NCBI GenBank assembly: GCA_902764415.1
Contig: CACWVU010000005.1
Location: 1 to 64,000 of the forward strand
Length of the DNA: 64,000 nucleotides
Direction: 5' to 3'
Source of the DNA: an uncultured bacterium
Lineage (GTDB): Bacteria > Verrucomicrobiota > Kiritimatiellia > RFP12 > UBA1067
The notes under the pieces are model-generated. The model had not been told where the DNA came from. It made no database searches and saw only the letters and a list, made by a program, of their open reading frames with translations. A program made the position numbers and the translations under genes. Below, one piece after another: positions 1,331-13,858 of this stretch (its first letter is position 1; every line of letters starts with the position of its first letter).

Positions 1331-1732
1331 TTATAGCTTTCGCCAACTATGACCACCGCCCTTGGGGCATTTTCCAAGCTGTGGATTGTCCGCTCCGCGA
1401 AGGACAAAATTGCACTTCCCGCACTGATAGTTATTGTATCCGGCGTCTGAATGGCGAAACCACTGGTGACCGCCCTGCATAGGACATTTTCCAGGCTGGG
1501 GTTGATTTGCTCGCTTTAGCAACCGATCGCACTTACGACATTGATAATTAACAAAACCGGCATCTGCAATTCTGCACCAGCTATGTCCAGCTCCCTTTTC
1601 ACACTTACCGGCAGACGGTATTGATGCGGCGCGCAGCTCAACCGAGCATTTACGGCATTCATATATTTTTATTTCAGCAGCAAATGCCAACGCGCAGGCC
1701 ACCAACAACGCAATTGTCGCAAAAGTTCTCAT
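1331..1732 (-). CDS. Small secreted protein with three Cys/His zinc-ribbon-like repeats
   Basis: I do not recognise a named family. After a signal peptide (MRTFATIALLVACALAFAA) come three tandem units of about 38 residues. Each has the form C-x2-C ... GKC-x5-H-x-W: YECRKC/GKCEKGAGHSW, YQCRKCDRLL/GKCPMQGGHQW and YQCGKCNFVL/GKCPKGGGHSW. Each unit offers three Cys and one His, consistent with a small metal site or disulfide-stabilised knuckle in the periplasm. The ATG at 1732 gives a 4-bp ATGA overlap with the upstream lipoprotein gene; an ATG five codons earlier is possible but lies inside that gene and lengthens the signal peptide. Last gene of the 13.9-1.3 kb run. Confidence 0.7.
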   Translation of the reverse strand: MRTFATIALLVACALAFAAEIKIYECRKCSVELRAASIPSAGKCEKGAGHSWCRIADAGFVNYQCRKCDRLLKRANQPQPGKCPMQGGHQWFRHSDAGYNNYQCGKCNFVLRGADNPQLGKCPKGGGHSWRKL

Positions 1733-2286
1733 GGCACCACCCTGCATCTATTTAGTTCATCCTCCTTAAATACCAACACTGCAACGCAATCGTCATCGGA
1801 ATCGTTTTGCTCACAAACCAAGATGCGACAGGAGACCGAGAATTCTTTTTGCAAGTCTTGGTAATGACTGCGCAATATCTCAATGGCACGAAACTTCGCC
1901 CTCGACTTGGTTAGGTTCTCGAATTCTCCTTCGACAGCAGGAATCCTCGCAACCACCAAAACCTGTCCGTTCCTTATATGAACCCCCTGCTCGCCTTTCC
2001 CGGCCAGCTCCTCCGCCCAATCATCCACTGACAATTCATCAGAGGGAACATCTGGATATGCAATCTTGTCATTCACCGTATTCCAAACATTGGAATTTAG
2101 GTCTGACCTATTTTCCGGTGTTTGGAATGCGTTTGTGGCCGCAACTAGCGGCTGGGCGTTGGTGTCCGACACCTGCAACGGCGCCACCGCCATGCAATCG
2201 CCATTTGTCTCAGGTGGCGGCGGCAATGTCGCGCAGCCCGAGGCCGCCGACATTGCCGCCGATGCGATCATCATTGCGATTCGCAT
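1729..2286 (-). CDS. Putative lipoprotein
   Basis: 185 residues. The N-terminus MRIAMMIASAAMSAASGC has a lipobox (AASGC) and is followed by a proline-rich tether (ATLPPPPE). The C-terminal half (about 95-185) contains GQVLVVARIPAVEGEFENLTKSRAKFRAIEILRSHYQD-type sequence, reminiscent of the domain in the neighbouring exported proteins, where a charged helix follows the first strand. No enzymatic motif is visible. It overlaps the downstream Cys/His-repeat gene by 4 bp and lies 12 bp after the upstream gene, so all three are probably co-transcribed. Confidence 0.65.
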   Translation of the reverse strand: MRIAMMIASAAMSAASGCATLPPPPETNGDCMAVAPLQVSDTNAQPLVAATNAFQTPENRSDLNSNVWNTVNDKIAYPDVPSDELSVDDWAEELAGKGEQGVHIRNGQVLVVARIPAVEGEFENLTKSRAKFRAIEILRSHYQDLQKEFSVSCRILVCEQNDSDDDCVAVLVFKEDELNRCRVVP

Positions 2287-2298
2287 TAATCCGTCCTC

Positions 2299-3705
2299 TT
2301 ACAGGTCGTCGTCGTCAGCTTCTGCGCCGCTGTTGAAGACGCCAGCCTGCGACTGCTTGTCGCGCTTCTGCGCAGCTTCCTTCTGCTGAACCTGCTGCTT
2401 GCCTTTGCGCGACTGCACCTCATTCTGGATGGCACCGCTCTGCGCATTGTAGCCCTTGTTGAAGTCGTTGGGGTCGTTCTTGGCGTTCTCGACGTGCGCC
2501 GCGTTTGCCGCCGCTCTGCCACGCTCGACTGTTTTGGCCCGCTCAAGCTCCGCACGAGTCGCGAAGTTCACCGCCTCAACCTTCAGCATGTCCTCCGCCG
2601 CGTTCTGGTTGATGCCGTAGATCGACACGTAGATGCGCCCGCCCGTAACAGGATGATCGACCTCTTCTGAAAGCAGCTGCGCCATGCCGCGCAGTGGAAG
2701 CCCCTTGATCGACTGAGAGACCTTCGACTCAAGCCACTGTGCGACCTCTGTCGTTGATTTGCCGTCAACGGTCCTCGTCGCAAGTTCCTGCTTCATCGTC
2801 TCCGCCGCCTTCACGTCGCCCCAGAGTGAGAACGCCAGCATCTGCTTGGCCGAAAGATCGGCAATGCGGCGGTTGGTCTTCATGGTGAGCGCGTCAAGGT
2901 CTTCGTCCACCGCGCCAGCCGAGATGCCGAGGAACCAGCGAACGCCATCCGCGTCAACGAACTGGATCGGTCCGGACATGAACGCCGGGTTGACGGCCTC
3001 CAGCCACTCTTCAACGCTCTTTCCGTTCTCCTTCGGTTTGCAGACGACCTTGTTGCCGGTGATAATGGCCCTCGCGGAACGCTCAAGCGCAGGAGACCAG
3101 ACAAGCGCAATCGCCACCTGGTACTTGCCCTTGTTCCACGACTCCGATTGCCTCACGCATGTCGCGCCGAAGAGCGGCATCTCGGCCATGAACTTCGCAG
3201 TTGAGTACTGCCTCAATTCCTGGACGCGTTTCGCCGCAAACGTCTTGGCCTCTTCTGTCGCCACGGACGGATTCCCGCCCGACATCTCCATGTAGTCGGT
3301 GGCATCAATCACCGTCTTCACGGATTCAATGATTTCCATCTTCGCCTGAAGGACAGCGCGCTTGACCGCCATATCGCGCTGGACCATCACGTTCTGCGCT
3401 TTCGCAGGATCATCACAGTCGAACTGTGCCATCTCCACGCAGACAAACCGCTTCTTCTTGGCGTCCCAACCCGGCCGCCATTTCTTACCCTTCACCCAGG
3501 CCGCCACTTCGTCCTTGGCGTTGGATATCTTCTTGGGCGGTTCCGCTGGCGCGGCGGCCTGCGCCTCACGCACGGCCTCGACACCGCCGTCGTTCACGAC
3601 CTCTGGCTGGGCTGCCGTTTCCTGCGCCGCCTCCTGGGCGAACGCCATACCGGCTCCGACCGCAACTGTAGCGGCCAGCGCCATCTTAACCATTAGTTCC
3701 TTCAT
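2299..3705 (-). CDS. Exported protein of unknown function with LPP20-like segment
   Basis: 468 residues with a signal peptide (cleavage likely after AGMAFA), an Ala/Glu/Pro-rich linker to about residue 60, then a globular region. VMVQRDMAVKRAVLQAKMEI resembles the helix of LPP20/FlgT-type domains. The last 90 residues are low-complexity and charged (alternating Lys, Gln, Asn and Asp, ending EADDDDL), suggesting a disordered tail. No catalytic motif was identified. It sits between the FlgT-like paralogue at 3748-5139 and the lipoprotein, all on the same strand; the 42-bp upstream gap has a GAAAGG-type ribosome site and no obvious promoter. Confidence 0.6.
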   Translation of the reverse strand: MKELMVKMALAATVAVGAGMAFAQEAAQETAAQPEVVNDGGVEAVREAQAAAPAEPPKKISNAKDEVAAWVKGKKWRPGWDAKKKRFVCVEMAQFDCDDPAKAQNVMVQRDMAVKRAVLQAKMEIIESVKTVIDATDYMEMSGGNPSVATEEAKTFAAKRVQELRQYSTAKFMAEMPLFGATCVRQSESWNKGKYQVAIALVWSPALERSARAIITGNKVVCKPKENGKSVEEWLEAVNPAFMSGPIQFVDADGVRWFLGISAGAVDEDLDALTMKTNRRIADLSAKQMLAFSLWGDVKAAETMKQELATRTVDGKSTTEVAQWLESKVSQSIKGLPLRGMAQLLSEEVDHPVTGGRIYVSIYGINQNAAEDMLKVEAVNFATRAELERAKTVERGRAAANAAHVENAKNDPNDFNKGYNAQSGAIQNEVQSRKGKQQVQQKEAAQKRDKQSQAGVFNSGAEADDDDL

Positions 3706-3747
3706 TTGATTTTACCTTTCTTTGTTTTGTTTTTTTGGACCACAAAA

Positions 3748-5139
3748 TCATTCTGCCAGCTCCACCGTCACCGACTTGATGTTTGGCAGTTCGTCACGAG
3801 GGATGTTAAAGCCTATCCACTCTTCAAGACTTGCCGCGTCACAATGCACCATAGGCGACACAAATAGCGCGACTTGATGATTGCAATCCGCTCCTTTCGG
3901 GAGGTACGGCATATGCCCAAGAAATACATTTGCGACTGCTCTATTCTCAAACGACACCGGCATCGCCGAGACTTCCTCTCCGCTTTTGTCTAAAAATACG
4001 ATATTGTATGTCGTCTTGCAGGGATTCCGCTCTGAATAGCGAACAGTGGCTTCCGCCGTAACCACCCTCTGATACCATTTCAGCACAACATCGGCACATT
4101 CAGGAGGAAGCGCATATTCACGCGCCTTTACTACCGAACGCGACTCATTCATTTTCGTTATTACCATCGCATGAAACACTCCGTCGTCCACCAATTTGCA
4201 TGTTGCCGAATTACCGTAATACTCTTTTGCCTCCCCACACTGCGCGTTTTTCATCGAAACACACCATGAATTCCCTTTGCCGTCGGCAAGGCCAATGTCG
4301 TCAACATAAACTCCTGTTGCCTCTCCTTCATAATATCGACTGGAAAACTTTGTGTGTCCGTCTTTTGCCGCGTCAAACTTCTCCCATTTACCGCCTATGT
4401 ATTCCTTCTTGTGTTCTGCAAGGTTCGAAGCATCAAAACCTCCTTCCGATGGATCCACTGCGCGAAGGCGTACATCCTTTGGTTGCTTGAGTGCGATCTG
4501 ATCGAGCACCTTTAGCAAAGGCGGAAGAAACTCATCATAGTACTTGCGGTCGTTAACTGTGAACTTAAATCGATAATACAACTTCTGCTTGCCATCATTG
4601 TCAACAGCCTGAATTGGCTTCGCCGGCGAAAGCGACAGGTTCATCAACTGCTTTACCGGATTCAATTCGCCAATGACATTCTCCAACAGCGCTGCCGCGT
4701 CTCCGTTGCGCTTTTCCTTCGTTACGACGCGGGAATGGATGTTCTGTGCGTCGTCTCCAAGGGCGAATGTCTGCTTCGGCATCATGTCCGAAAGTTTCTT
4801 CGTAAGCGCAGACTTCTTGACCTCGGCGTTTATCCTTATTTCGACAAGACCGTTCGGCTTAGTCTTTTCTTTCACGACATCGTATTTCTCGATATAGGCA
4901 TTGGACTGCGTGAGAATCTGATCCTCTACCAGCTCCTCGTTCTTCATCTTCTGCTCGGCGTCAACATACATGCCGACGGCGCGTTCCACCGCGTCGCGGT
5001 ATGCGTCTTTCAACGCCTCGGCCTTGTTTGCGCCAACGCCGCGCCCTTCGACATTCACAATCTCGGCGGTGTCGGCGAATGTGCATGCCGCAGCCAGCAG
5101 GCTTGCTGCCATGACGAATTTCTTTATTGATGCATTCAT
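3748..5139 (-). CDS. FlgT/LPP20-like exported protein, paralogue 1
   Basis: 463 residues. After a signal peptide (MNASIKKFVMAASLLAAACTF) comes a domain of about 130 residues starting AEIVNVEGRGVGANKAEA and running through DAYRDAVERAVGMYVDAEQ and QILTQSNAYIEKYDV. It is nearly identical in the two paralogues at 9369-10604 and 10620-12065. The GxGxxxxxAxxxAxxxAVxxAVG pattern is that of the FlgT N-terminal/LPP20-type domain found in outer-membrane-associated periplasmic proteins. The C-terminal 300 residues diverge between paralogues and have no recognised family. The start at 5139 has AAAGGA upstream and yields the signal peptide; a longer open frame runs back into the channel gene but lacks both. 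A promoter lies at 5159-5188. Confidence 0.7.
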   Translation of the reverse strand: MNASIKKFVMAASLLAAACTFADTAEIVNVEGRGVGANKAEALKDAYRDAVERAVGMYVDAEQKMKNEELVEDQILTQSNAYIEKYDVVKEKTKPNGLVEIRINAEVKKSALTKKLSDMMPKQTFALGDDAQNIHSRVVTKEKRNGDAAALLENVIGELNPVKQLMNLSLSPAKPIQAVDNDGKQKLYYRFKFTVNDRKYYDEFLPPLLKVLDQIALKQPKDVRLRAVDPSEGGFDASNLAEHKKEYIGGKWEKFDAAKDGHTKFSSRYYEGEATGVYVDDIGLADGKGNSWCVSMKNAQCGEAKEYYGNSATCKLVDDGVFHAMVITKMNESRSVVKAREYALPPECADVVLKWYQRVVTAEATVRYSERNPCKTTYNIVFLDKSGEEVSAMPVSFENRAVANVFLGHMPYLPKGADCNHQVALFVSPMVHCDAASLEEWIGFNIPRDELPNIKSVTVELAE

Positions 5140-5158
5140 TATTGTCCTTTCATTTGGT

Positions 5159-5188
5159 TTATACGGTTGAATTGTTGTTTTGTGACAA
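5159..5188 (-). promoter_or_regulatory. Candidate ECF-type promoter upstream of FlgT-like paralogue 1
   Basis: On the minus strand TTGTCACA (5188-5181) and CCGTATAA (5166-5159) are separated by 14 bp. A nearly identical block precedes paralogue 3 (12088-12117). A bipartite TGTCACA / CGT promoter is the style used by several ECF sigma factors, so the ECF gene at 12123 is a candidate regulator (inference). The block also encodes the last residues of the upstream K+ channel. Confidence 0.5.
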
Positions 5189-6016
5189 GATCGGTTTCCC
5201 GCAGTGCGGGCAGAGCTTTGGCGCTTGATTTCCACCTGCCGCCTTTGACGCCTCGCGTTTCTTCGCCATATATTCAAGAAACCCCGACGAAAGTATGCTC
5301 GTAGGTATTGCGACCATACCGATGCCCAGAAGCGCAATGAGCGCGCCGAGGATACGTCCAACCGGAGTGATGGGATATATGTCGCCATATCCTACCGTCG
5401 TGAGCGTAGCAACCGCCCACCACAGCCCCGAAAACGCATTGCGGAACGCATCCGGCTGCGCATCGTGTTCCGCCGCATAGACGAGAAGCGACGAGACAAG
5501 CATCAAGACAAGCACGAAAAGCATTGAACCGACAAGTTCCCGTCTTTTCTCTCTTACGACGCACCCGACCATGGCAAGCGCGTCAAAATAGCGGTTCAGC
5601 TTGAATATCCTAAGAAGTCGCACAAGACGGAATGCCCGCATCCCCAACATGCCTCCCGGCAAAAACATTGGCAGCCAGAACGGAAGGATCGCCAACAAAT
5701 CAACGATTGCCATGCCGGAAACGACATAGCGCCCACGCATCAGCCATGGATCCCGTTCGGGATCGAGCTCCGGCGCTGTCCAAATGCGAAGTACGTATTC
5801 AATGGTGAACACAATTGACGCTATAGCTTCAAAACCAACGAGCACGCCACGGACAGCGACGGAGAGGTCAAGTGTCACGATGAAGACGGACGCGACGCTG
5901 AGAAAAATCAACGCGGTTATCGCCAAGTCAAATACAATGCTCGGCCAGTATCCCGCCGAATCCGGCTGGATCACCATAAATACCGCCTTGCGCAAACTCT
6001 TTAGGCTTGTCTTCAT
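5159..6016 (-). CDS. Voltage-gated potassium channel (six-TM Kv/KvAP type) with C-terminal zinc ribbon
   Basis: 285 residues. S1-S3 are hydrophobic from about residue 25. S4 is RAFRLVRLLRIFKLNRY, with Arg/Lys at every third position. The pore loop carries the K+ selectivity filter TLTTVGYGD (around residue 209) and is followed by S6 (GRILGALIALLGIGMVAIPTSIL). The short cytoplasmic tail ends with CPHCGKP, half of a CxxC zinc-ribbon motif. By family it conducts K+ across the inner membrane in response to voltage. It lies between the TPR gene (7 bp apart) and FlgT-like paralogue 1. Its final residues ILSQNNNSTV are encoded by the promoter block of that next gene, so the tail may have been formed by insertion of a duplicated promoter-gene unit. 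Confidence 0.92.
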   Translation of the reverse strand: MKTSLKSLRKAVFMVIQPDSAGYWPSIVFDLAITALIFLSVASVFIVTLDLSVAVRGVLVGFEAIASIVFTIEYVLRIWTAPELDPERDPWLMRGRYVVSGMAIVDLLAILPFWLPMFLPGGMLGMRAFRLVRLLRIFKLNRYFDALAMVGCVVREKRRELVGSMLFVLVLMLVSSLLVYAAEHDAQPDAFRNAFSGLWWAVATLTTVGYGDIYPITPVGRILGALIALLGIGMVAIPTSILSSGFLEYMAKKREASKAAGGNQAPKLCPHCGKPILSQNNNSTV

Positions 6017-6023
6017 TCTTGCA

Positions 6024-7694
6024 TCAAAAACCTTCGCCCCTGAACTTCATGTCAGTAGGGACGAGTTCAAGATAGACCTTGGCCGCAGCCTTTGCATCAT
6101 CCGCCCTGCCAATCCTCTTGAGCACCATCGCCTCCTTCTTCCATGCCTCGGCAAAACGCGGCGCAAGTGTCCTGGCCTTCGCGTAGCATTCCACCGCAGA
6201 CTCAGACTTTCCAGACGCTTCGATGGTGTCGCCCTTCTGCAGCCAGAAGCGCTCCGGCTTGTATGTTGACACCTTTATGGCAAGGTCGATTGCAGCAACG
6301 GCCTCTTCCGATCTGTTCAGCTTCGCAAGCAATGTAGCCTTGTGTGAATAGGCGTCGTCGTATTTCTCGTCCGCCGCAATGGCCTTGTCATAGAACGACA
6401 ACGCCTTTTCATCATTGTTCGCCTTCCGATAGACGTCACCGAGATAAAGGAGCGTGCGCTTGGCCTTGGGATCGAGTTCGTACGCGAAATTCAAATCTCG
6501 CAATGCATCGTCAAGCTTGCCAAGGGCGACGGACATCTTTGCACGGCGCACGTAGAGGTCTGCGTTCATCGGATCTAGCAGAATCGCCGCGCCGAAGCTT
6601 TTGACCGCCTCCTCGTACTGCGCCATTTCGCCGCAGATGATGCCCCGCCATTTGTGGGCGAGGAGGAAGTTGGCGTCCATCGCGATTGCCTTGTCCATCC
6701 ACACCTTGGCGACAGTGTAGTTGTCCTCGTACCCGTAGAACATCCCCATCGCATAGCAGGCCTCCTTGTAGTCGGGATTGACCGCCAGTGCCTTCTTCAT
6801 CTCCTCGCGCGCAAGGTCGTAGCGTTTTTCTTTTCCTGTCGCATACGTCCAACCGCGATTGTAGATCGCGAGGTCGAACTTGGGATCGATCTCCAGCGCC
6901 TTGTCGCAGCAGTCACGCGCCGCCTTCGGATCTTTCTTGAAGTCCATCGCGACAACGCCCTTCCAAAGCCATGCCCACTTCGACTTCGGATTCAGCTCCA
7001 GAGCCTTTGCAAGCGAAGCTTCAGCGCCCGCGATGTCCTTCTCGTCGAGCTGCACCATCGCCAGACGTATAAGCGCGAAATCGCTATTTGAATCGAGCTC
7101 CACTGCCTTCTGTATCACCTCCTTCGCGCGCGCCGTCTCTTTCAGCGCCGCGAGAATCTGGCCTTGCAGAATGTACGGCTCCGGTCTTTTCGGCTCCAGT
7201 CCCTGCAGAAACACGGCCTCGGCATACGCCTGATGCGCACGGTCGAGTTCCGCCTTGTTGAAGGGTCGCCCAAGGTTCAGAAGGTCTCGCGTCGCAGCCA
7301 TGCCATTGATGTACGCCTTGAAGAAGATATATTCTGGACTCTCCTTCTCGATTTCAAGCGCCTTGTCGACAAACGGCAGGGCGACGTCGGGGTTGTTCTC
7401 GGTGTAGTAAAGTCGTCTGGCGACTTCCGCATAGCGGTCGGCCATCTTGTGCAGCGTCTGCTTGTTGAAGTACCATCCGCCGATTTTGGCGAGAATCACG
7501 AAGACAACGCCGAGCTTTGCTAAGGTGCGCAGTTTTATGACCGTCTTGGTCCATTTTTCCGGCACCTTCTCCGCAAGCCCGTAGATAGGCTCGAAGTGGT
7601 CACGCACCTCGCGCATGTACTTGACGAGGCTTTCGATCGCCTTGGCGTTCGCTGCGATCCGCCTGTCCTGCACCTTGTCGTGTTCGGATATCAT
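6024..7694 (-). CDS. Membrane-anchored TPR-repeat protein
   Basis: 556 residues. The N-terminal cytoplasmic-looking helix (to about 60) is followed by one transmembrane segment (LGVVFVILAKIGGWYF, about 63-78). After that come at least ten tetratricopeptide repeats, for example YNRGWTYATGKEKRYDLARE, AYSHKATLLAKLNRSEEA and CYAMGMFYGYEDNYTVAKVW. TPR solenoids are protein-interaction scaffolds; no enzymatic domain is present. It is 7 bp upstream of the channel gene and downstream of the M48 protease gene, from which a palindromic repeat (7720-7800) separates it. A role assembling the neighbouring envelope proteins is plausible but unproven. Confidence 0.85.
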   Translation of the reverse strand: MISEHDKVQDRRIAANAKAIESLVKYMREVRDHFEPIYGLAEKVPEKWTKTVIKLRTLAKLGVVFVILAKIGGWYFNKQTLHKMADRYAEVARRLYYTENNPDVALPFVDKALEIEKESPEYIFFKAYINGMAATRDLLNLGRPFNKAELDRAHQAYAEAVFLQGLEPKRPEPYILQGQILAALKETARAKEVIQKAVELDSNSDFALIRLAMVQLDEKDIAGAEASLAKALELNPKSKWAWLWKGVVAMDFKKDPKAARDCCDKALEIDPKFDLAIYNRGWTYATGKEKRYDLAREEMKKALAVNPDYKEACYAMGMFYGYEDNYTVAKVWMDKAIAMDANFLLAHKWRGIICGEMAQYEEAVKSFGAAILLDPMNADLYVRRAKMSVALGKLDDALRDLNFAYELDPKAKRTLLYLGDVYRKANNDEKALSFYDKAIAADEKYDDAYSHKATLLAKLNRSEEAVAAIDLAIKVSTYKPERFWLQKGDTIEASGKSESAVECYAKARTLAPRFAEAWKKEAMVLKRIGRADDAKAAAKVYLELVPTDMKFRGEGF

Positions 7695-7719
7695 CTTCGT
7701 TTCCAGTTTGTTTTGTTTT

Positions 7720-7800
7720 TAACGCAGAGACGCAGAGTCGCAGAGGATAGGATGTTTTGTTTTCGCAAAATCGTCTCTGCCTCTCTGCGCCTCTGCGTTA
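7720..7800. repeat. AACGCAGAGACGCAGAG-type inverted repeat
   Basis: The left arm TAACGCAGAGACGCAGAGTC (7720-7739) is built of a roughly 9-bp unit (ACGCAGAG). The right arm CTCTGCGCCTCTGCGTTA (about 7783-7800) is its reverse complement. The element fills the gap between the M48 and TPR genes. It belongs to the same short-period style as the repeats at 35724-35803 and 50705-50761. It could form a large hairpin in RNA. Confidence 0.8.
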
Positions 7801-7806
7801 AACATA

Positions 7807-9339
7807 TTAATCCCCCACAGCACTCCTGTACCGCGCGGCTCTTGCGGCGCGACCGGACTCCCCATCGCCGTCCTTGCAGCCGAAACCTTCGCGGTACTTC
7901 AGCACATCCGCACCACGTTCCGCCGGATAGCTCGCACCGCCGTACGTCCCCTTCTCCGCCTTGAACCGCTCCAAAACATCGTACAGCGCTTTCGTCTCGT
8001 AGCCGAGCGTCTTGGCGAACTGGATCGAGCGCCAGTCTGCCTGGCTCTCCATTTCGATGCCGTAGCCATTTCGGATTGACGTCGTGAGCTTGCCAAACAA
8101 CTCGTCGGCGAGAGCGACAAGCTGCTGCCGCGCAGCGGTCTGAGTACTGTCGCCGGAATCGCCGGACATGGTCGCGACTTCCTTCATGAGAGAGAAGAGC
8201 TTCAACACGCTCTCCTTGCCGACGGACTTCATGCCGTGGCGAAGCTCCATGTGCCCCATTTCGTGTCCGAGGATCGCGGCAAGTTCATCTTCGTCCTTCA
8301 GGAACTTGAGCATCCCAGTCGTGACGAAGACGAATCCGCCGGGGACGGCGAATGCATTGACCTCGTCAGACTGCACCGTGAGGAACATGTACCCGTGATA
8401 CGGCATCGGGTCGTTTGACGCGGCGGCTAGCGTCGCGCCTATAGTGCGCACGTACACGCTTTTCGGATCGTCCTGCGGCAATACGGGGTACAGCGGCAGG
8501 ATGCGCGAAGCGACAACGCAGCCGAGCTGATATTCCTGAACAGGTCCGACTTCGCTGTAGATGAGTCCGCTCGTCACCTTTCCGGCAGAAGCCGCCGCGC
8601 CGATCAGCTTGTCCTCGCCGGCGACCGCACCCGCAAGTTTTGACGCGAAGCCAAGTCCGCTCGCGCTCGCTTTGCGCGTAGTCTTCATAAATCCACCAAA
8701 GAAGCCTTCTTCCTCGACCTTCTCTTCTTTCAACTTGCGCGAATCGGACTTGGCGAGCTCGCCCGCCGAGATGAAGGTGGCGACTTCCGCATCGGAAACG
8801 GCCTTACGTTCAGCAAGCACCTTCGTCACCGCAGCAGGGTCGGCCTTTGCCGCAGCTTTTCCACTCCCCGCCGCTCCGCGCATCGCGGCCATTTCGCCAT
8901 TTTCCGATTCGGAGAACCCGCGCATGGACGCGAGAGCGCCATCGTTCTCTGACTCCGAAAAGCCGCGCTTCGCTGCGAGTGTTCCGTCCGCCGAAATCGT
9001 CTCGTTCGGATTCTGGTTCTCCATCAACCATTCGCTGGCGATGGACGGAAACGGCAAATATCCTGTCTTGCCGTCGACCTTCACTTTGACCCAGAGCGGC
9101 AGAAGCGTATCCGGGAACTTGTCCTTGTCGCCGTTGAACGGCACGGCGAAGCGGCACGTCGTAACGACCTCCGCCGCGTCGTTGTACTTTAGCGACACAA
9201 CTGCGGTCGAGAGCCCGTCTGGCTTCTCGCGCAGCGTCAGCGTCTCGGTCGAGACACGCCACGTCTCGCCAGGCTTCGGGTCCTCGGCGTCCGCCACGGC
9301 AGCTGCGGCAAGCACAAACACTGCAATCATCTTCTTCAT
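7807..9339 (-). CDS. Secreted SH3-like/M48-family zinc metalloprotease
   Basis: 510 residues. A signal peptide (MKKMIAVFVLAAAAVADA) is followed by a bacterial SH3-like region (about 25-110, with LTLREKPDGLSTAVVSL and WVKVKVDGKTGYLP). Next is a low-complexity linker containing two copies of RGFSESEN, then an M48 peptidase domain. The zinc site is HEMGH (within AAILGHEMGHMELRHG), with the third ligand expected in EMESQAD. The upstream sequence NAFAVPGGFVFVTTGML is the typical BepA/LoiP-type M48 segment. By family these periplasmic proteases degrade or chaperone misassembled envelope proteins. This fits a gene group that starts with an ECF sigma factor. Gap to the upstream paralogue 2 is 29 bp. 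Confidence 0.87.
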   Translation of the reverse strand: MKKMIAVFVLAAAAVADAEDPKPGETWRVSTETLTLREKPDGLSTAVVSLKYNDAAEVVTTCRFAVPFNGDKDKFPDTLLPLWVKVKVDGKTGYLPFPSIASEWLMENQNPNETISADGTLAAKRGFSESENDGALASMRGFSESENGEMAAMRGAAGSGKAAAKADPAAVTKVLAERKAVSDAEVATFISAGELAKSDSRKLKEEKVEEEGFFGGFMKTTRKASASGLGFASKLAGAVAGEDKLIGAAASAGKVTSGLIYSEVGPVQEYQLGCVVASRILPLYPVLPQDDPKSVYVRTIGATLAAASNDPMPYHGYMFLTVQSDEVNAFAVPGGFVFVTTGMLKFLKDEDELAAILGHEMGHMELRHGMKSVGKESVLKLFSLMKEVATMSGDSGDSTQTAARQQLVALADELFGKLTTSIRNGYGIEMESQADWRSIQFAKTLGYETKALYDVLERFKAEKGTYGGASYPAERGADVLKYREGFGCKDGDGESGRAARAARYRSAVGD

Positions 9340-9368
9340 TGCGCATTCATCCCTTCTTTATTAAGCGC

Positions 9369-10604
9369 TTACTTTACGATTTCAATTTTAAGATTCTCGA
9401 TCTCTGGCATTGCGTCTTTCGGGATGTCAAACTCATGCCAAGAATATTTATTAAACTCCACCTCGTTTCCCCCGGCAATAGTCCATGGCACAATGGCTCT
9501 ATACGACATCTCCCTGTAACTATTTCGACTTATCCGTACTGATCCACTGGCAAAACATCTTGCCCACTTCCATGGCGTAATCTTATAACAGCAAACAACA
9601 TCATTTTTCTTATCCACAAACGATACATTGAACAAGATATCTCTGCCATCTGTAATATGACCACCCCAATTATTAATTATTTTTGCAGACGCATCGTCAA
9701 GTTCATACAATACACCGCTGCATATCGTATTATGTTCGTTAACGTTCATGGGAAGAACAAAGAATTCAGATGTGTCGCTGTTTACAGGCAAGCCAATGAT
9801 CTCTTGAGCATAAAGAAACGGATCTCGTGAACGGCAGGACTTCCCATCAGGATTAGAATTGGGATTCTTGCGCCGTTTCTCTATCATCGCATTAACATCA
9901 ATTTGATCGCCCATGCGGATAGGGATTGTTACGCTTCGCGGTTCTGCTAACGAAATCTGATCCAATACACTCTTCAATTTTGGGACTACGTTTTCAAATA
10001 GGCGCTTCTGATTGATGGATGTCTTGAAAAGATAACTTACTGATACTGTGTGTTGGGGATGCCATCCCTCCCGCTTCTCACGTATGAAGCCGTCTGGGCA
10101 GGCCAGCTCGCAGTCCATAATCTCAAGCATCGGATTCAAGCCTTCAAGGGCTTTCTTCAGCAGCGCAGCACCATCCATATTGCGCTTCGCTTCCGTTGCC
10201 ATCTTGGCATGGGCGTTTTTAAGTCCATTGCCAAGCCGAAACGTCTTCGTCGGCATCACGTCAGAGATTTTCTTCGTTAGCGCAGTTTTGCGGACTTCTG
10301 CGAGAATCTGAATTTCGACGAGGCCGTTCGGCTTCGTCGTCTCCTTCGCCACGTCATACTTCTCGATGTAGGCGTTAGACTGCGTGAGAATCTGATCCTT
10401 GACCAGTTCCTCGTTCTCCATCATCTGCTCTGCATCGACATACAGCCCGACGGCGCGTTCAACCGCGTCGCGGTATGCGTCCTTCAGCGCCTCGGTCTTG
10501 TCGGTACCGATGCCCCGCCCCTTGACCTTTACGATTTCAACATCCTGTGCTATCGCGAACGAAGCGGCAAGCAAACCGGCTGCCACAACCATTAATTTAT
10601 TCAT
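9369..10604 (-). CDS. FlgT/LPP20-like exported protein, paralogue 2
   Basis: 411 residues: signal peptide (MNKLMVVAAGLLAASFAIAQ), then the shared domain VEIVKVKGRGIGTDKTEA through QILTQSNAYIEKYDV to about residue 130. The C-terminal part differs from paralogues 1 and 3 and is not recognised. Codon use in the C-terminal half is visibly AT-rich. It is 15 bp downstream of paralogue 3 and has no separate promoter that I can see, so the two are probably read together. Function inferred only from domain resemblance: a periplasmic or outer-membrane-associated structural or sensory protein. Confidence 0.68.
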   Translation of the reverse strand: MNKLMVVAAGLLAASFAIAQDVEIVKVKGRGIGTDKTEALKDAYRDAVERAVGLYVDAEQMMENEELVKDQILTQSNAYIEKYDVAKETTKPNGLVEIQILAEVRKTALTKKISDVMPTKTFRLGNGLKNAHAKMATEAKRNMDGAALLKKALEGLNPMLEIMDCELACPDGFIREKREGWHPQHTVSVSYLFKTSINQKRLFENVVPKLKSVLDQISLAEPRSVTIPIRMGDQIDVNAMIEKRRKNPNSNPDGKSCRSRDPFLYAQEIIGLPVNSDTSEFFVLPMNVNEHNTICSGVLYELDDASAKIINNWGGHITDGRDILFNVSFVDKKNDVVCCYKITPWKWARCFASGSVRISRNSYREMSYRAIVPWTIAGGNEVEFNKYSWHEFDIPKDAMPEIENLKIEIVK

Positions 10605-10619
10605 TGTGCTTTCCTCCTC

Positions 10620-12065
10620 TTATTCCTCTACCGAGACAATTGCCGTGGCAATCTTTGCCACATCGTCCTTTGGCACGTCAACGCTGATCCATTTGACATA
10701 GCTTTTTGCGAATCCACCGACAAGCGGCGTTATCAGCAAAAGTCGTTTGCCGCCATTGCCATTGTGATCAGGATCCTCCAACAGTACGCAACCAAAATTC
10801 AGAACATCATAATTGCGCACCATAAACGAGCCTCCGGCAACCTCTTCTCCTGAAGCATCGGTAAAATTTAATTCAAATGACGTTGTTGCAGCATCTCTAT
10901 ACCAATTATTGTCTTTCCCTTCACCAACCAGTCTTTTTTGCCAAGCGACAATTTCCTTGACACATTCGTATGGGATTTTGTATAAGCGTCCGCTCAACGT
11001 TGTGCCCTTCTCAGCAACAACAAGCCCTATCCCAAATAAACAATCTTCTGGCATTGCAAAGTCATTGTTGTAGGAACCAAAGCGCTCGTTATGGTATCTC
11101 CTTATTACCCCGCCAAAATCATTTTTCACCAAATCACCAAGCACATAATAGGCACGTTCTTCCAAACCGCTAAACAAGTACTGCCTGCCGAACACTTGGG
11201 TATCAAAAAATGTCATCCCATGATATTCCTCATTCAACGCTACACCCCATTCCATTAATTCATCAACCCAAACACCAATACTGAGATCCCTCTTTTCATC
11301 ACTACGCGTCATAATTCCAGACCTATTCTTCCGCGTCGTGCCAAACTTTTTGTTTAGGCAGTTGTTGTACGCCTGCACATACTTCAAATTGTTCCGCAGA
11401 TCAAGGCGCTTGGTCGGCAATGTCTTTATCTGGTCAAGAATGCGCGACCAGCGCGGCACAAATTCCTTGTAGTATTTGTCTTTATCGACTTCAACCTTGA
11501 TTGGGTACCAAAGCCTAACAAGCGAAGGATCCTCATCGACTTTCTCGACAGATGGCTTGACGCTGTCCAAGGATGCCTTCATCAACTGTTTCACCGGCGA
11601 GAAGTCTTTGAGCTCGTTCTTGACAATTGAAAGTGCGTCTTCGTTCGCTTTGAAGTCGGTTACTATCTGGGCGTGAAGATTCTGGTTCTCCGCCGCAACG
11701 TCCTTACTCTGCGACGACATGACATCATTTATCTTCTTCGCAAGGTCGCGTTTGCGGACATTGGCAAGAATCGTAATTGCAACAAGTCCATTTGGCTTTT
11801 TTGCCTCGACAACTATGTTGTATTTCTCGATGTAGGCGTTGGACTGGGTGAGAATCTGATCAGTAACCAGTTTCTCGTTCTTCATCATTTGCTCGGCGTC
11901 GACATACAACCCGACGGCACGTTCCACCGCGTCGCGGTATGCATCTTTAAGCGCTTCGGCCTTGTCGGCGCCTACACCCTGCCCCTTGACCTTTACGATT
12001 TCGACGTCGTCGGCAAACGCGGCAAGCATTGCCATGGCTACGACAACTGCTATCATTCGTTTCAT
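10620..12065 (-). CDS. FlgT/LPP20-like exported protein, paralogue 3
   Basis: 481 residues. The signal peptide (MKRMIAVVVAMAMLAAFA) leads into DDVEIVKVKGQGVGADKAEA and the same domain of about 130 residues as in paralogues 1 and 2. The C-terminus is unrelated in detail, AT-rich in codon use and of unknown fold. It is the first structural gene after the ECF sigma factor (57 bp). It has its own promoter block at 12088-12117 that matches the block before paralogue 1, so the sigma factor may drive both. Confidence 0.68.
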   Translation of the reverse strand: MKRMIAVVVAMAMLAAFADDVEIVKVKGQGVGADKAEALKDAYRDAVERAVGLYVDAEQMMKNEKLVTDQILTQSNAYIEKYNIVVEAKKPNGLVAITILANVRKRDLAKKINDVMSSQSKDVAAENQNLHAQIVTDFKANEDALSIVKNELKDFSPVKQLMKASLDSVKPSVEKVDEDPSLVRLWYPIKVEVDKDKYYKEFVPRWSRILDQIKTLPTKRLDLRNNLKYVQAYNNCLNKKFGTTRKNRSGIMTRSDEKRDLSIGVWVDELMEWGVALNEEYHGMTFFDTQVFGRQYLFSGLEERAYYVLGDLVKNDFGGVIRRYHNERFGSYNNDFAMPEDCLFGIGLVVAEKGTTLSGRLYKIPYECVKEIVAWQKRLVGEGKDNNWYRDAATTSFELNFTDASGEEVAGGSFMVRNYDVLNFGCVLLEDPDHNGNGGKRLLLITPLVGGFAKSYVKWISVDVPKDDVAKIATAIVSVEE

Positions 12066-12087
12066 CCTGCATTTCCTTTCATTGGGT

Positions 12088-12117
12088 TTATACGGATAAG
12101 CTGTTGGTTTGTGACAA
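12088..12117 (-). promoter_or_regulatory. Candidate ECF-type promoter upstream of FlgT-like paralogue 3
   Basis: Minus strand TTGTCACA (12117-12110) and CCGTATAA (12095-12088), 14 bp apart. Most positions in and around the block, down to the AATGAAAGGA ribosome site, are shared with 5159-5188. It lies immediately downstream of the ECF sigma gene. Confidence 0.5.
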
Positions 12118-12122
12118 GGTTT

Positions 12123-12710
12123 CTACTCCAGGAGCTTCATATACTCCCTTATCATCTCCGTTACGCGGTGCTTGACCTGACGGACAAGCGCTGGGGTGAC
12201 CCCGCGCAAAGCGGCGATCTCAGATGGCTTGTCGCCCTTTTCGACGTCCAGATAGATTTCCCTGTATCCATTCGGCAACGGCATATGGTCAAGGACATGC
12301 TTTCGCGCCGCCTCATAACACGACTCCCTCCACTGCCGTTCCATGACTTCGTATCCGGTCGGCGTTTCACGCCGTAACCAGTCTATCTTTTCAAGCGTCA
12401 CGCCCTCCGCAGCCTTGCGCTCGCGCAGATAGTCCACCGCCATGTTGTAGACTATCGCATAGAGATACGTCCTGAACCTGGCGCGAGAGGCGTCGTACTT
12501 CTTCGAACGCAACTCTCGCACAAGCCTTACCATCACGTCCTGCACAATGTCGTCATAGTCGCTCACGAGGGAAAAGAACTTCTGGCGCATAAAAAAGCGA
12601 ATCACGGGACGATAAAGCCTGTCGAACTCAAACCACTTCGCGTCATCCAGGTCGCCGCGCTCGGCAATCTGCTTTAGCAGTGTCTTGGGGGTGTCAGGTA
12701 TCACGCTCAT
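12123..12710 (-). CDS. ECF-family RNA polymerase sigma factor
   Basis: 195 residues. Region 2 has YDDIVQDVMVRLVREL and FRTYLYAIVYNMAVDYLRER. Region 4 has PNGYREIYLDVEKGDKPSEI followed by the helix-turn-helix ALRGVTPALVRQVKHRV. No region 1 or 3 is present, as expected for ECF sigma factors. Its ATG overlaps the stop of the kinase gene (ATGA at 12707-12710), so the two are translationally coupled. ECF sigma factors paired with Ser/Thr kinases are known (EcfP-PknT type), where phosphorylation replaces an anti-sigma factor; I see no anti-sigma gene here. Likely targets include the two TGTCACA-type promoters in the same cluster (inference). Confidence 0.9.
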   Translation of the reverse strand: MSVIPDTPKTLLKQIAERGDLDDAKWFEFDRLYRPVIRFFMRQKFFSLVSDYDDIVQDVMVRLVRELRSKKYDASRARFRTYLYAIVYNMAVDYLRERKAAEGVTLEKIDWLRRETPTGYEVMERQWRESCYEAARKHVLDHMPLPNGYREIYLDVEKGDKPSEIAALRGVTPALVRQVKHRVTEMIREYMKLLE

Positions 12711-13858
12711 TGCCGTTTTATGACTACCTTCCTGTTGCCGCGATACAAGACGCGCATCCCGGGCTGCGGAACGACTTTAATCTGGTCGCGCATGTCGCCT
12801 ACTACTTCGTCAGCCGAAATGAGAACACCGCTGAAATCCTCCGGCACCGCGATTTCCGCAATGCCGTCGGCATCAGGCAGCACAAGCCGCCCAATGTGCA
12901 CGGCTCCGCTCATGGCAGCCATACCAGGCCGCAGCGAAACAACTTCGCCAGAAGAAACCGTCTGATGTGTTGACGCAAACCCCATACCCAGAAACAAACC
13001 GCAGCCAAGCAGGCATACTGCTACGCACGCCGCTATGGCGGCCAGCCTTGCGTGCCAGCGAGTACTTGGTTTCTGCAACGGCGTCTCCGGCAACTGCCCG
13101 GCATTCCCCGGGCGCTTCTTCGGATCTTGCTCAAGCATCTGAGAAAGGGTCTTCGCCCACTGTGGCGCAAACGTTCTCAACTGCGCAATGAGACGCGGCG
13201 ATCCCTCATACCAGATGCCGGTTACGACCTTGAACATAACGACGCCAAAGGAATAGACGTCGGAACGCGGCGTGGCCGGAGTGCCATCGCGGCATTCTGG
13301 AGCAATGGCATACGCAGTGCCGAAGCCTCCGGCCTCGCACGAGCCGGTAAGTTCCAGTCGTTCGCGCATCTGGGGATTCACGATGCGGGCAATGCCAAAG
13401 TCGGAAAGAACCGCGTGGCCGTCACTACGCAACAGGACATTCTCGGCCTTAAGGTCGCCGTGGACGATTCCAAGCGAATGACAATATGCGAGCGCATCCC
13501 GCAAATCGCAATATATGGACACCGCTTCATTCGGCGTTGGCGGCCTACTGCTCGACAGTTTTGCGGCCAGAGTGTCGCCTTCGACCAGATCCATCGCAAG
13601 CCACGGTTTTCCGTCTGTAGTAGTGCCGAAATCGGTGACGCGCACTATGTTTGGATGGCGCAGCGTCGCAAGGACACGAGCTTCGGCCAGGAACTTGCCG
13701 CGCAGCGTTTCGGCATTTGTACAACCAGACACGTCAAACACCTTTACGGCATGACGTGTCCTGAGCGAGTCGTGTACTGCGGCATAAACCACCGACATCC
13801 CTCCTCGCCCACATTCCGCCTCGATGCGGTATGGCCCGAATTTGTCTATTGCAACGCC
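12707..13858 (-). CDS. Membrane Ser/Thr protein kinase (Pkn2-like) with disrupted 5' end
   Basis: The kinase domain has CGRGGMSVVYAA (glycine loop), HAVKVFD (ATP Lys), HGDLKAENVLL (catalytic loop, HGD not HRD), SDFGIAR and YAIAPE. One transmembrane helix follows (about LAAIAACVAVCLLGCGLFLG), then about 85 extracytoplasmic residues. The first standard start codon (ATG 13798) lies inside the glycine loop and is too late. In-frame sequence continues upstream as VAIDKFGPYRIEAE to 13858, where a TAA (13861-13859) blocks it, with no ATG, GTG or TTG between. In another frame just upstream, VCKARHSSLPSKCC looks like a zinc ribbon common at the N-terminus of such kinases, so a frameshift (natural or sequencing) is likely. 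Coupled to the sigma factor gene by ATGA. Confidence 0.82.
   Translation of the reverse strand, partial: GVAIDKFGPYRIEAECGRGGMSVVYAAVHDSLRTRHAVKVFDVSGCTNAETLRGKFLAEARVLATLRHPNIVRVTDFGTTTDGKPWLAMDLVEGDTLAAKLSSSRPPTPNEAVSIYCDLRDALAYCHSLGIVHGDLKAENVLLRSDGHAVLSDFGIARIVNPQMRERLELTGSCEAGGFGTAYAIAPECRDGTPATPRSDVYSFGVVMFKVVTGIWYEGSPRLIAQLRTFAPQWAKTLSQMLEQDPKKRPGNAGQLPETPLQKPSTRWHARLAAIAACVAVCLLGCGLFLGMGFASTHQTVSSGEVVSLRPGMAAMSGAVHIGRLVLPDADGIAEIAVPEDFSGVLISADEVVGDMRDQIKVVPQPGMRVLYRGNRKVVIKRQ

Follow-up and report, generated by a model that had tools for sequence, protein, structure and literature searches.

Gene order and proposed switch

Does the protein kinase encoded ahead of a run of exported proteins in an uncultured member of the Kiritimatiellia switch on these genes through the sigma factor encoded beside it? 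The question is raised by a locus in the first 14 kb of the 64,000-nucleotide stretch analyzed here (contig CACWVU010000005.1, positions 1 to 64,000; hereafter the window). Contig 5 of a 2.6-Mb metagenome-assembled genome (MAG; G000) begins with this stretch, which among named records is most similar to Kiritimatiellia MAGs of rumen and gut origin. Eleven genes lie on the minus strand from approximately position 13849 to 1331 (Table 1). They code for a transmembrane (TM) Ser/Thr kinase (KIN), an extracytoplasmic function (ECF) sigma factor (SIG), three exported proteins of one family (FLG: Flg1, Flg2, and Flg3), an M48 protease, a TPR protein, a channel (KCH), and the exported proteins EX468 (family EX), LP185, and CHzn. 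The original prediction had described this set, EX468 aside, on one strand, and all of its genes were confirmed. Because the intergenic gaps do not exceed 112 bp, with several genes overlapping or almost touching, transcription of the block as one or few operons is plausible. On balance, it appears likely that a kinase-gated ECF sigma switch controls this operon of exported envelope proteins.

In the proposed mechanism, the extracytoplasmic domain of KIN would detect an envelope signal, and KIN would then activate the translationally coupled SIG. RNA polymerase carrying SIG would start at two predicted promoters, for which the sequence offers support: P1, reading Flg1-Flg2-M48-TPR-KCH, and P2, reading Flg3-EX468-LP185-CHzn. 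The LPP20/FlgT-type proteins and the M48-TPR pair would finally maintain or remodel the envelope, either in the periplasm or at the outer membrane.

The kinase-sigma factor pair

KIN (PF00069, E 5.8e-38) possesses the catalytic residues K, E, D, and N as well as the DFG motif, and is of the non-RD type with HGD replacing HRD. Beyond the single TM helix it extends into a C-terminal extracytoplasmic domain of approximately 90 residues. The last ~70 of these are shared with the KIN orthologs in the genomes G006 and G095 and, judged by this conservation, could be the sensor. The reading frame contains no ATG, GTG, or TTG ahead of the glycine loop; the start indicated by the aligned orthologs is an ATA at position 13849, preceded by AAGG, which reflects a rare start codon or else an error of assembly. 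SIG (TIGR02937, E 5e-16, plus a Sigma70_r2 match) consists of the sigma2 and sigma4 regions only and groups with the sigma factors of G006:C98 and G095:C96 (tree support 0.998).

The two genes overlap by 4 bp (ATGA), and no candidate for an anti-sigma gene was found among the genes around KIN-SIG in the window. Both observations agree with the translational coupling without an anti-sigma factor that had been postulated for this pair, and the pairing extends to the whole family. Sigma homologs are present in 34 of the 40 relatives searched; all five in G000 adjoin a Ser/Thr kinase gene, and a kinase lies within 1.5 kb of the sigma factor, usually overlapping it, at 25 of 30 sampled loci. According to a profile search, 142 of 162 genomes of the order contain the kinase-sigma family with 1-15 pairs each, mostly without FLG or EX. 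SIG thus displays the general features of ECF sigma factors regulated by Ser/Thr protein kinases (STPK), as it adjoins a TM Ser/Thr kinase, keeps this neighbor in relatives, and has no anti-sigma gene. A further kinase-sigma paralog adjoins a gene resembling the K subunit of V-type ATPases (identified by eye) in both G000 and G127 (L047 10981-13129, L040, L126); in G127, a cluster of LpoB and EX stands between the two.

The switch is of a kind already known, namely that of STPK-linked ECF sigma factors such as EcfP/PknT. In EcfP/PknT of Vibrio parahaemolyticus and EcfK/PknS of Xanthomonas citri, both of group ECF43, the kinase activates the sigma factor, which in turn drives a regulon related to stress or the envelope; ECF43 sigma factors have lost the acidic residues of region 2.2 and carry a phospho-Thr instead (PMC8999054, PMC13147305). 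Like these systems, KIN-SIG combines a co-encoded TM Hanks kinase with an ECF sigma factor and lacks an anti-sigma factor. Given this precedent, the pairing of the genes, and the missing anti-sigma gene, we propose that KIN activates SIG, most likely by phosphorylation. In contrast to ECF43, however, SIG keeps the acidic pair of region 2.2 (D53 D54), and no replacement within DxxD by a phosphorylatable Thr was found. All 13 aligned sigma factors have acidic residues at positions 53 and 54; KIN-SIG is therefore not an ECF43 system, and a different control point is to be expected. With the acidic residues retained, the charge-restoring means of ECF43 is unlikely for SIG; control through the sigma2-sigma4 linker or through kinase binding would be likelier. 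The predicted targets differ as well, being FLG, EX, and M48-TPR instead of polymyxin-resistance or type VI secretion genes. Some likeness also exists to the STPK-linked groups ECF59, ECF61, ECF62, and ECF217 of Planctomycetes, which are likewise sigma factors of the Planctomycetes-Verrucomicrobia-Chlamydiae (PVC) superphylum encoded beside kinases; groups other than ECF43 retain a DAED-like motif (PMC8999054).

Predicted promoters

P1 and P2 share the hexamers TGTCAC-N16-CGTATA and are identical at 38 of 44 bases. P1 begins approximately 6 nt past the SIG stop codon and ends 20 nt ahead of the Flg1 ATG; P2 lies 17 nt ahead of the Flg3 ATG and is overlapped by the final codons of KCH. Across the 2.6-Mb genome, TGTCAC-N15-18-CGTATA occurs only at these two places, and the reversed control yielded none. 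Both sites match with 0 mismatches (0.00 expected in shuffles at up to three mismatches), although the pattern was derived from P1 and P2 themselves, so that their recovery is by construction and only the rarity is informative. Similar sites follow the sigma gene in relatives. With at most one mismatch and within 400 bp 3' of sigma, they were found at 4 of 23 loci of the order KIN>SIG versus 0.08 expected in shuffles; three such loci remain if the window is left out (P ~8e-5). No site was present within 400 bp after sigma at 22 loci of other gene order. The sigma factors with sites fall in the clade of SIG and in adjoining KIN>SIG clades. In G091, one site follows a sigma gene (C246), another stands ahead of an EX gene (C13), and another, with one mismatch, ahead of an FLG cluster (C93). 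A scan for sigma-70 promoters gave no more matches than chance. We infer that P1 and P2 are promoters used by the SIG-RNA polymerase.

The proposal that the sigma factor induces its own structural genes is thus probably correct as far as the sites before Flg1 and Flg3 and their counterparts in relatives are concerned. Its autoregulatory part found no support, as the 300 bp upstream of KIN contain no matching site.

Exported proteins and recurring cassettes

Flg1, Flg2, and Flg3 are 36-42% identical overall and far more similar at the N-terminus. Against the Pfam families FlgT_N (PF16548) and LPP20 (PF02169), none of the FLG proteins scored above the cut-off and those of the window remained below the gathering scores; sub-threshold matches were obtained to FlgT_N for 7 of 21 family members (best E 2.4e-4) and to LPP20 for 4 of 21 (best E 0.005). 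The structure model of FLG (predicted local distance difference test, pLDDT, 69) gave weak matches to Tip-alpha only (E 0.08-0.2). The EX468 model (pLDDT 74) matched FTT1539c (4QVR; E 6e-12, probability 1.0) and Lpp20 (E 0.014) in Foldseek, and a profile search also retrieved 4QVR (E 4.5e-4). EX468 hence belongs to the LPP20-like fold group and brings the number of such exported proteins in the block to at least four. The three paralogous FlgT/LPP20-like proteins of the original prediction were therefore correctly recognized as paralogs but undercounted, and their Pfam affiliation stays below threshold. As far as the models indicate, FLG and EX468 probably belong to a single broad fold group of exported proteins. 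Compared with other members of the LPP20/FlgT_N/FlgP/Tip-alpha group, FLG and EX are much longer, have no association with flagellar motors, and commonly occur in combination with each other.

FLG was found in 23 and EX in 31 of the 162 genomes; 14 of the 23 FLG genomes also contain EX (P 1.4e-6, uncorrected for ancestry), and EX is close by on 12 FLG contigs. FLG-EX pairs exist outside the order in one Victivallales, one Planctomycetota, and one Pirellula MAG. By gene neighborhood and distribution, FLG-EX is a conserved pair. Its link to kinase-sigma pairs is best seen in G095, where the orthologous kinase and sigma genes are followed in the order KIN-SIG-[ATPase]-EX-LP185-FLG until the contig ends. 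In a goat-rumen MAG (L101), FLG-FLG-EX-LP185 lies beside a divergent sigma/kinase stretch; the promoter motif was searched there and not found. Gene order is thus conserved in relatives, contrary to the outcome that the original prediction had named as its refutation. Other kinase-sigma paralogs adjoin FLG in G135 and an EX cluster in G127, and sigma genes within 5 kb of FLG/EX clusters are enriched (3 of 18 versus 0.39 expected, P 0.007 including the window). In the Pirellula MAG (L114 642-6733), a kinase gene and a weak sigma match are divergent to the FLG-EX pair. This arrangement hints that the association of kinase-sigma pairs with FLG-EX may be older than the order.

EX clusters of relatives also contain LpoB (PF13036, E 1.7e-32), which activates a peptidoglycan synthase; its presence there supports an envelope role. 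Together with the export signals and M48 relatives such as BepA, it makes an envelope function of the exported proteins likely. L131 (5384-13551), L126, L132, and L129 also hold conserved clusters in which LpoB, FLG-like, and EX genes are combined with several for unnamed exported proteins, and some of these clusters have a kinase-sigma pair behind them.

The M48 protease and the TPR protein form a conserved pair of their own, separate from FLG-EX by the same kind of comparison. Full-length M48 orthologs (60-80% identical) occur in seven other genomes, the TPR ortholog comes directly after the M48 gene in every one of the eight genomes (the window's included), and a diverged pair exists in G106. 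All eight genomes with M48-TPR carry EX (P 8e-7, uncorrected for ancestry). An exported M48 protease with TPR is reminiscent of BepA, an outer-membrane quality-control protease and the best NCBIfam match (E 3.5e-14). However, M48 scores 52 bits against an equivalog cut-off of 570 and is not a BepA by this measure; moreover, protease and TPR reside on separate, tightly linked genes, and the TPR protein is anchored by a TM helix of its own. The N-terminal region of M48 (~280 residues) has no assigned domain. In the M48-TPR gap (7695-7806), an imperfect inverted repeat with GCAGAG/CTCTGC units could fold into a hairpin and thereby change the expression of TPR.

The operon is, by these comparisons, a composite of the recurring cassettes KIN-SIG, FLG-EX-LP185, and M48-TPR, each of which is found in other arrangements. 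The view of the eleven genes as one unit had to be given up: the cassettes recur separately, so that a single inherited block was rejected, and the channel is widespread independently. KCH (Ion_trans, E 8.8e-31; TVGYGD filter) qualifies as a voltage-gated K+ channel, yet its orthologs in 37 genomes are not beside FLG, and it was rejected as a module-specific gene. In G078 and G101, a BacNaV-type channel with a sodium-type TLESWS filter, only remotely related to KCH, directly precedes M48-TPR (L122 1402-2244; L124 7193-7984). M48-TPR and a voltage-gated channel might form a membrane-potential-linked envelope repair unit that repeatedly recruited different channel types and was placed in some genomes under a kinase-sigma switch with FLG-EX, but we regard this idea as rather doubtful. 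Sensing of the membrane potential by the system, as originally suggested, is speculation to which only these recurring channels point.

Alternative explanations

Several findings weigh against control of the block by SIG. The enrichment of sigma genes near FLG/EX clusters drops to P ~0.05 once the window is excluded. G006 has a KIN-SIG ortholog (L048, a 4-kb contig) without FLG, and no FLG was found in this genome. In G095, despite the orthologous sigma factor, no P1/P2-like site precedes EX, LP185, or FLG. Order-wide, the pattern is at background, with 46 sites versus 43 in reversed controls. Finally, P1 and P2 precede paralogous genes, and part of their identity may stem from duplication. 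KIN-SIG could accordingly be a passenger, a generic and much duplicated regulator merely preceding an acquired block whose envelope genes are expressed by read-through or a housekeeping sigma factor. The GC content of 54% in the first 14 kb versus 66% in the rest of the window suggests such an acquisition, and the near ubiquity of kinase-sigma pairs, their general lack of FLG/EX, the confinement of FLG to few genomes, and the G006 locus fit this explanation. Nevertheless it is unlikely, because it leaves unexplained why promoter-like sites stand exactly before Flg1 and Flg3, why related sites follow sister-clade sigma genes and precede EX and FLG in G091, why G095 is syntenic, and why FLG/EX repeatedly lie near different KIN-SIG paralogs (G135, G127, and L101). 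The sites themselves might instead act as an operator, have arisen as a duplicated leader, or belong to an intergenic repeat. Their similarity ahead of paralogs and a repeated housekeeping-like element ~40-70 bp past the site in G010, G091, and G004 would be in line with this. Yet, of the six positions at which P1 and P2 differ, five belong to the N16 spacer and none to a hexamer, and a ribosome-binding site and ATG follow immediately on the site in L050 and on that ahead of EX in L129, as they do in the window. The TGTCAC-N16-CGTA form also resembles known ECF promoters, and we consider a non-promoter origin quite improbable.

Two further explanations concern the function of the block. FlgT_N and LPP20 are motor-associated families, and contig 25 of the genome harbors a locus resembling a type III secretion system (T3SS), so that the FlgT-like proteins could be accessories of a flagellum or of this system. 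The export locus with its YscJ/FliF-, YscU/FlhB-, and EscN-type genes is not near FLG, however, and the partners of FLG in relatives are EX, LP185, LpoB-like, and M48 genes instead of motor genes. This explanation is thus very improbable, and a flagellar role was rejected as the leading interpretation since the FliP locus is T3SS-like. A defense island against phages or competitors, in which the kinase triggers envelope changes, would agree with the low GC content, the toxin-antitoxin-like neighbor, the patchy distribution, and scores of the kinase domain against PADLOC kinases. These matches are generic (kinase domain and TPR) and no other component fits a defense model; a defense system was rejected for want of a component-specific match and has hardly any likelihood. 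The kinase-gated sigma switch thus stays the preferred interpretation of the locus.

What is new about it is the predicted regulon with its promoter, along with the FLG-EX and M48-TPR cassettes that recur. That no described system has this set holds for the whole set, as far as searched, whereas the kinase-ECF switch as such has been described (PMC8999054, PMC13147305). Few systems with phosphorylation-type control of an ECF sigma factor have been worked out, and those in the literature examined all belong to ECF43; no study of the kinase-sigma pairs in animal-gut Kiritimatiellia, with 1-15 per genome, was found in the literature searched. With a confined regulon and a promoter sequence predicted for it, the pair described here makes mechanism and target specificity directly testable. 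In addition, two unnamed exported families (FLG and EX) and an M48-TPR pair recurring beside voltage-gated channels gain a context.

Features and surroundings of the locus

Table 1. Genes and predicted promoters of the locus, in order of transcription.
Feature	Description	Position	Strand	Basis
KIN	Hanks-type Ser/Thr kinase, one TM helix	12707..13849	-	PF00069, sequence, ortholog alignment (G006, G095)
SIG	ECF sigma factor	12123..12710	-	TIGR02937, alignment, clade with G006 and G095 sigma factors
P1	Predicted ECF-type promoter, TTGTCACAAA-N12-CCGTATAAAC	12086..12117	-	Reading of upstream regions, motif scans
Flg1	Exported FlgT_N/LPP20-like protein	10620..12065	-	Ortholog in G001, E 2e-164
Flg2	Exported FlgT_N/LPP20-like protein	9369..10604	-	Paralog comparison, profile matches
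M48	Secreted zinc metalloprotease	7807..9339	-	PF01435, E 2.6e-25
TPR	TPR protein, one N-terminal TM helix	6024..7694	-	TPR matches; always directly 3' of M48
KCH	Voltage-gated K+ channel	5159..6016	-	PF00520, PF07885
P2	Predicted ECF-type promoter, TTGTCACAAA-N12-CCGTATAAAC	5157..5188	-	Reading of upstream regions, motif scans
Flg3	Exported FlgT_N/LPP20-like protein	3748..5139	-	Paralog comparison, structure model
EX468	Exported protein, LPP20-type fold	2299..3705	-	Profile and fold matches; partner of FLG across the PVC group
LP185	Small lipoprotein-like exported protein	1729..2286	-	Adjoins EX in G095 and L101
CHzn	Exported Cys/His-repeat protein, zinc-ribbon-like	1331..1747	-	FmdB-like match below cut-off

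The open reading frame of 546 residues listed for Flg3 at position 5388 truly begins at approximately 5139. Upstream, the block is preceded by rpmB with a strong terminator-like hairpin (14358-14329); downstream, a toxin-antitoxin-like pair (651-1297, recognized by eye) converges on it. ATPase genes (AAA_14/DUF4143-like by eye) often lie in or beside FLG/EX clusters (L041, L044, L091, L093, and L106) and perhaps are mobile elements. The T3SS-like locus of G000 (L169, contig 25, 7000-17000) comprises YscJ-, FliP-, and YscU-type genes and an EscN-type ATPase gene, and is adjoined by an ECF sigma factor gene.

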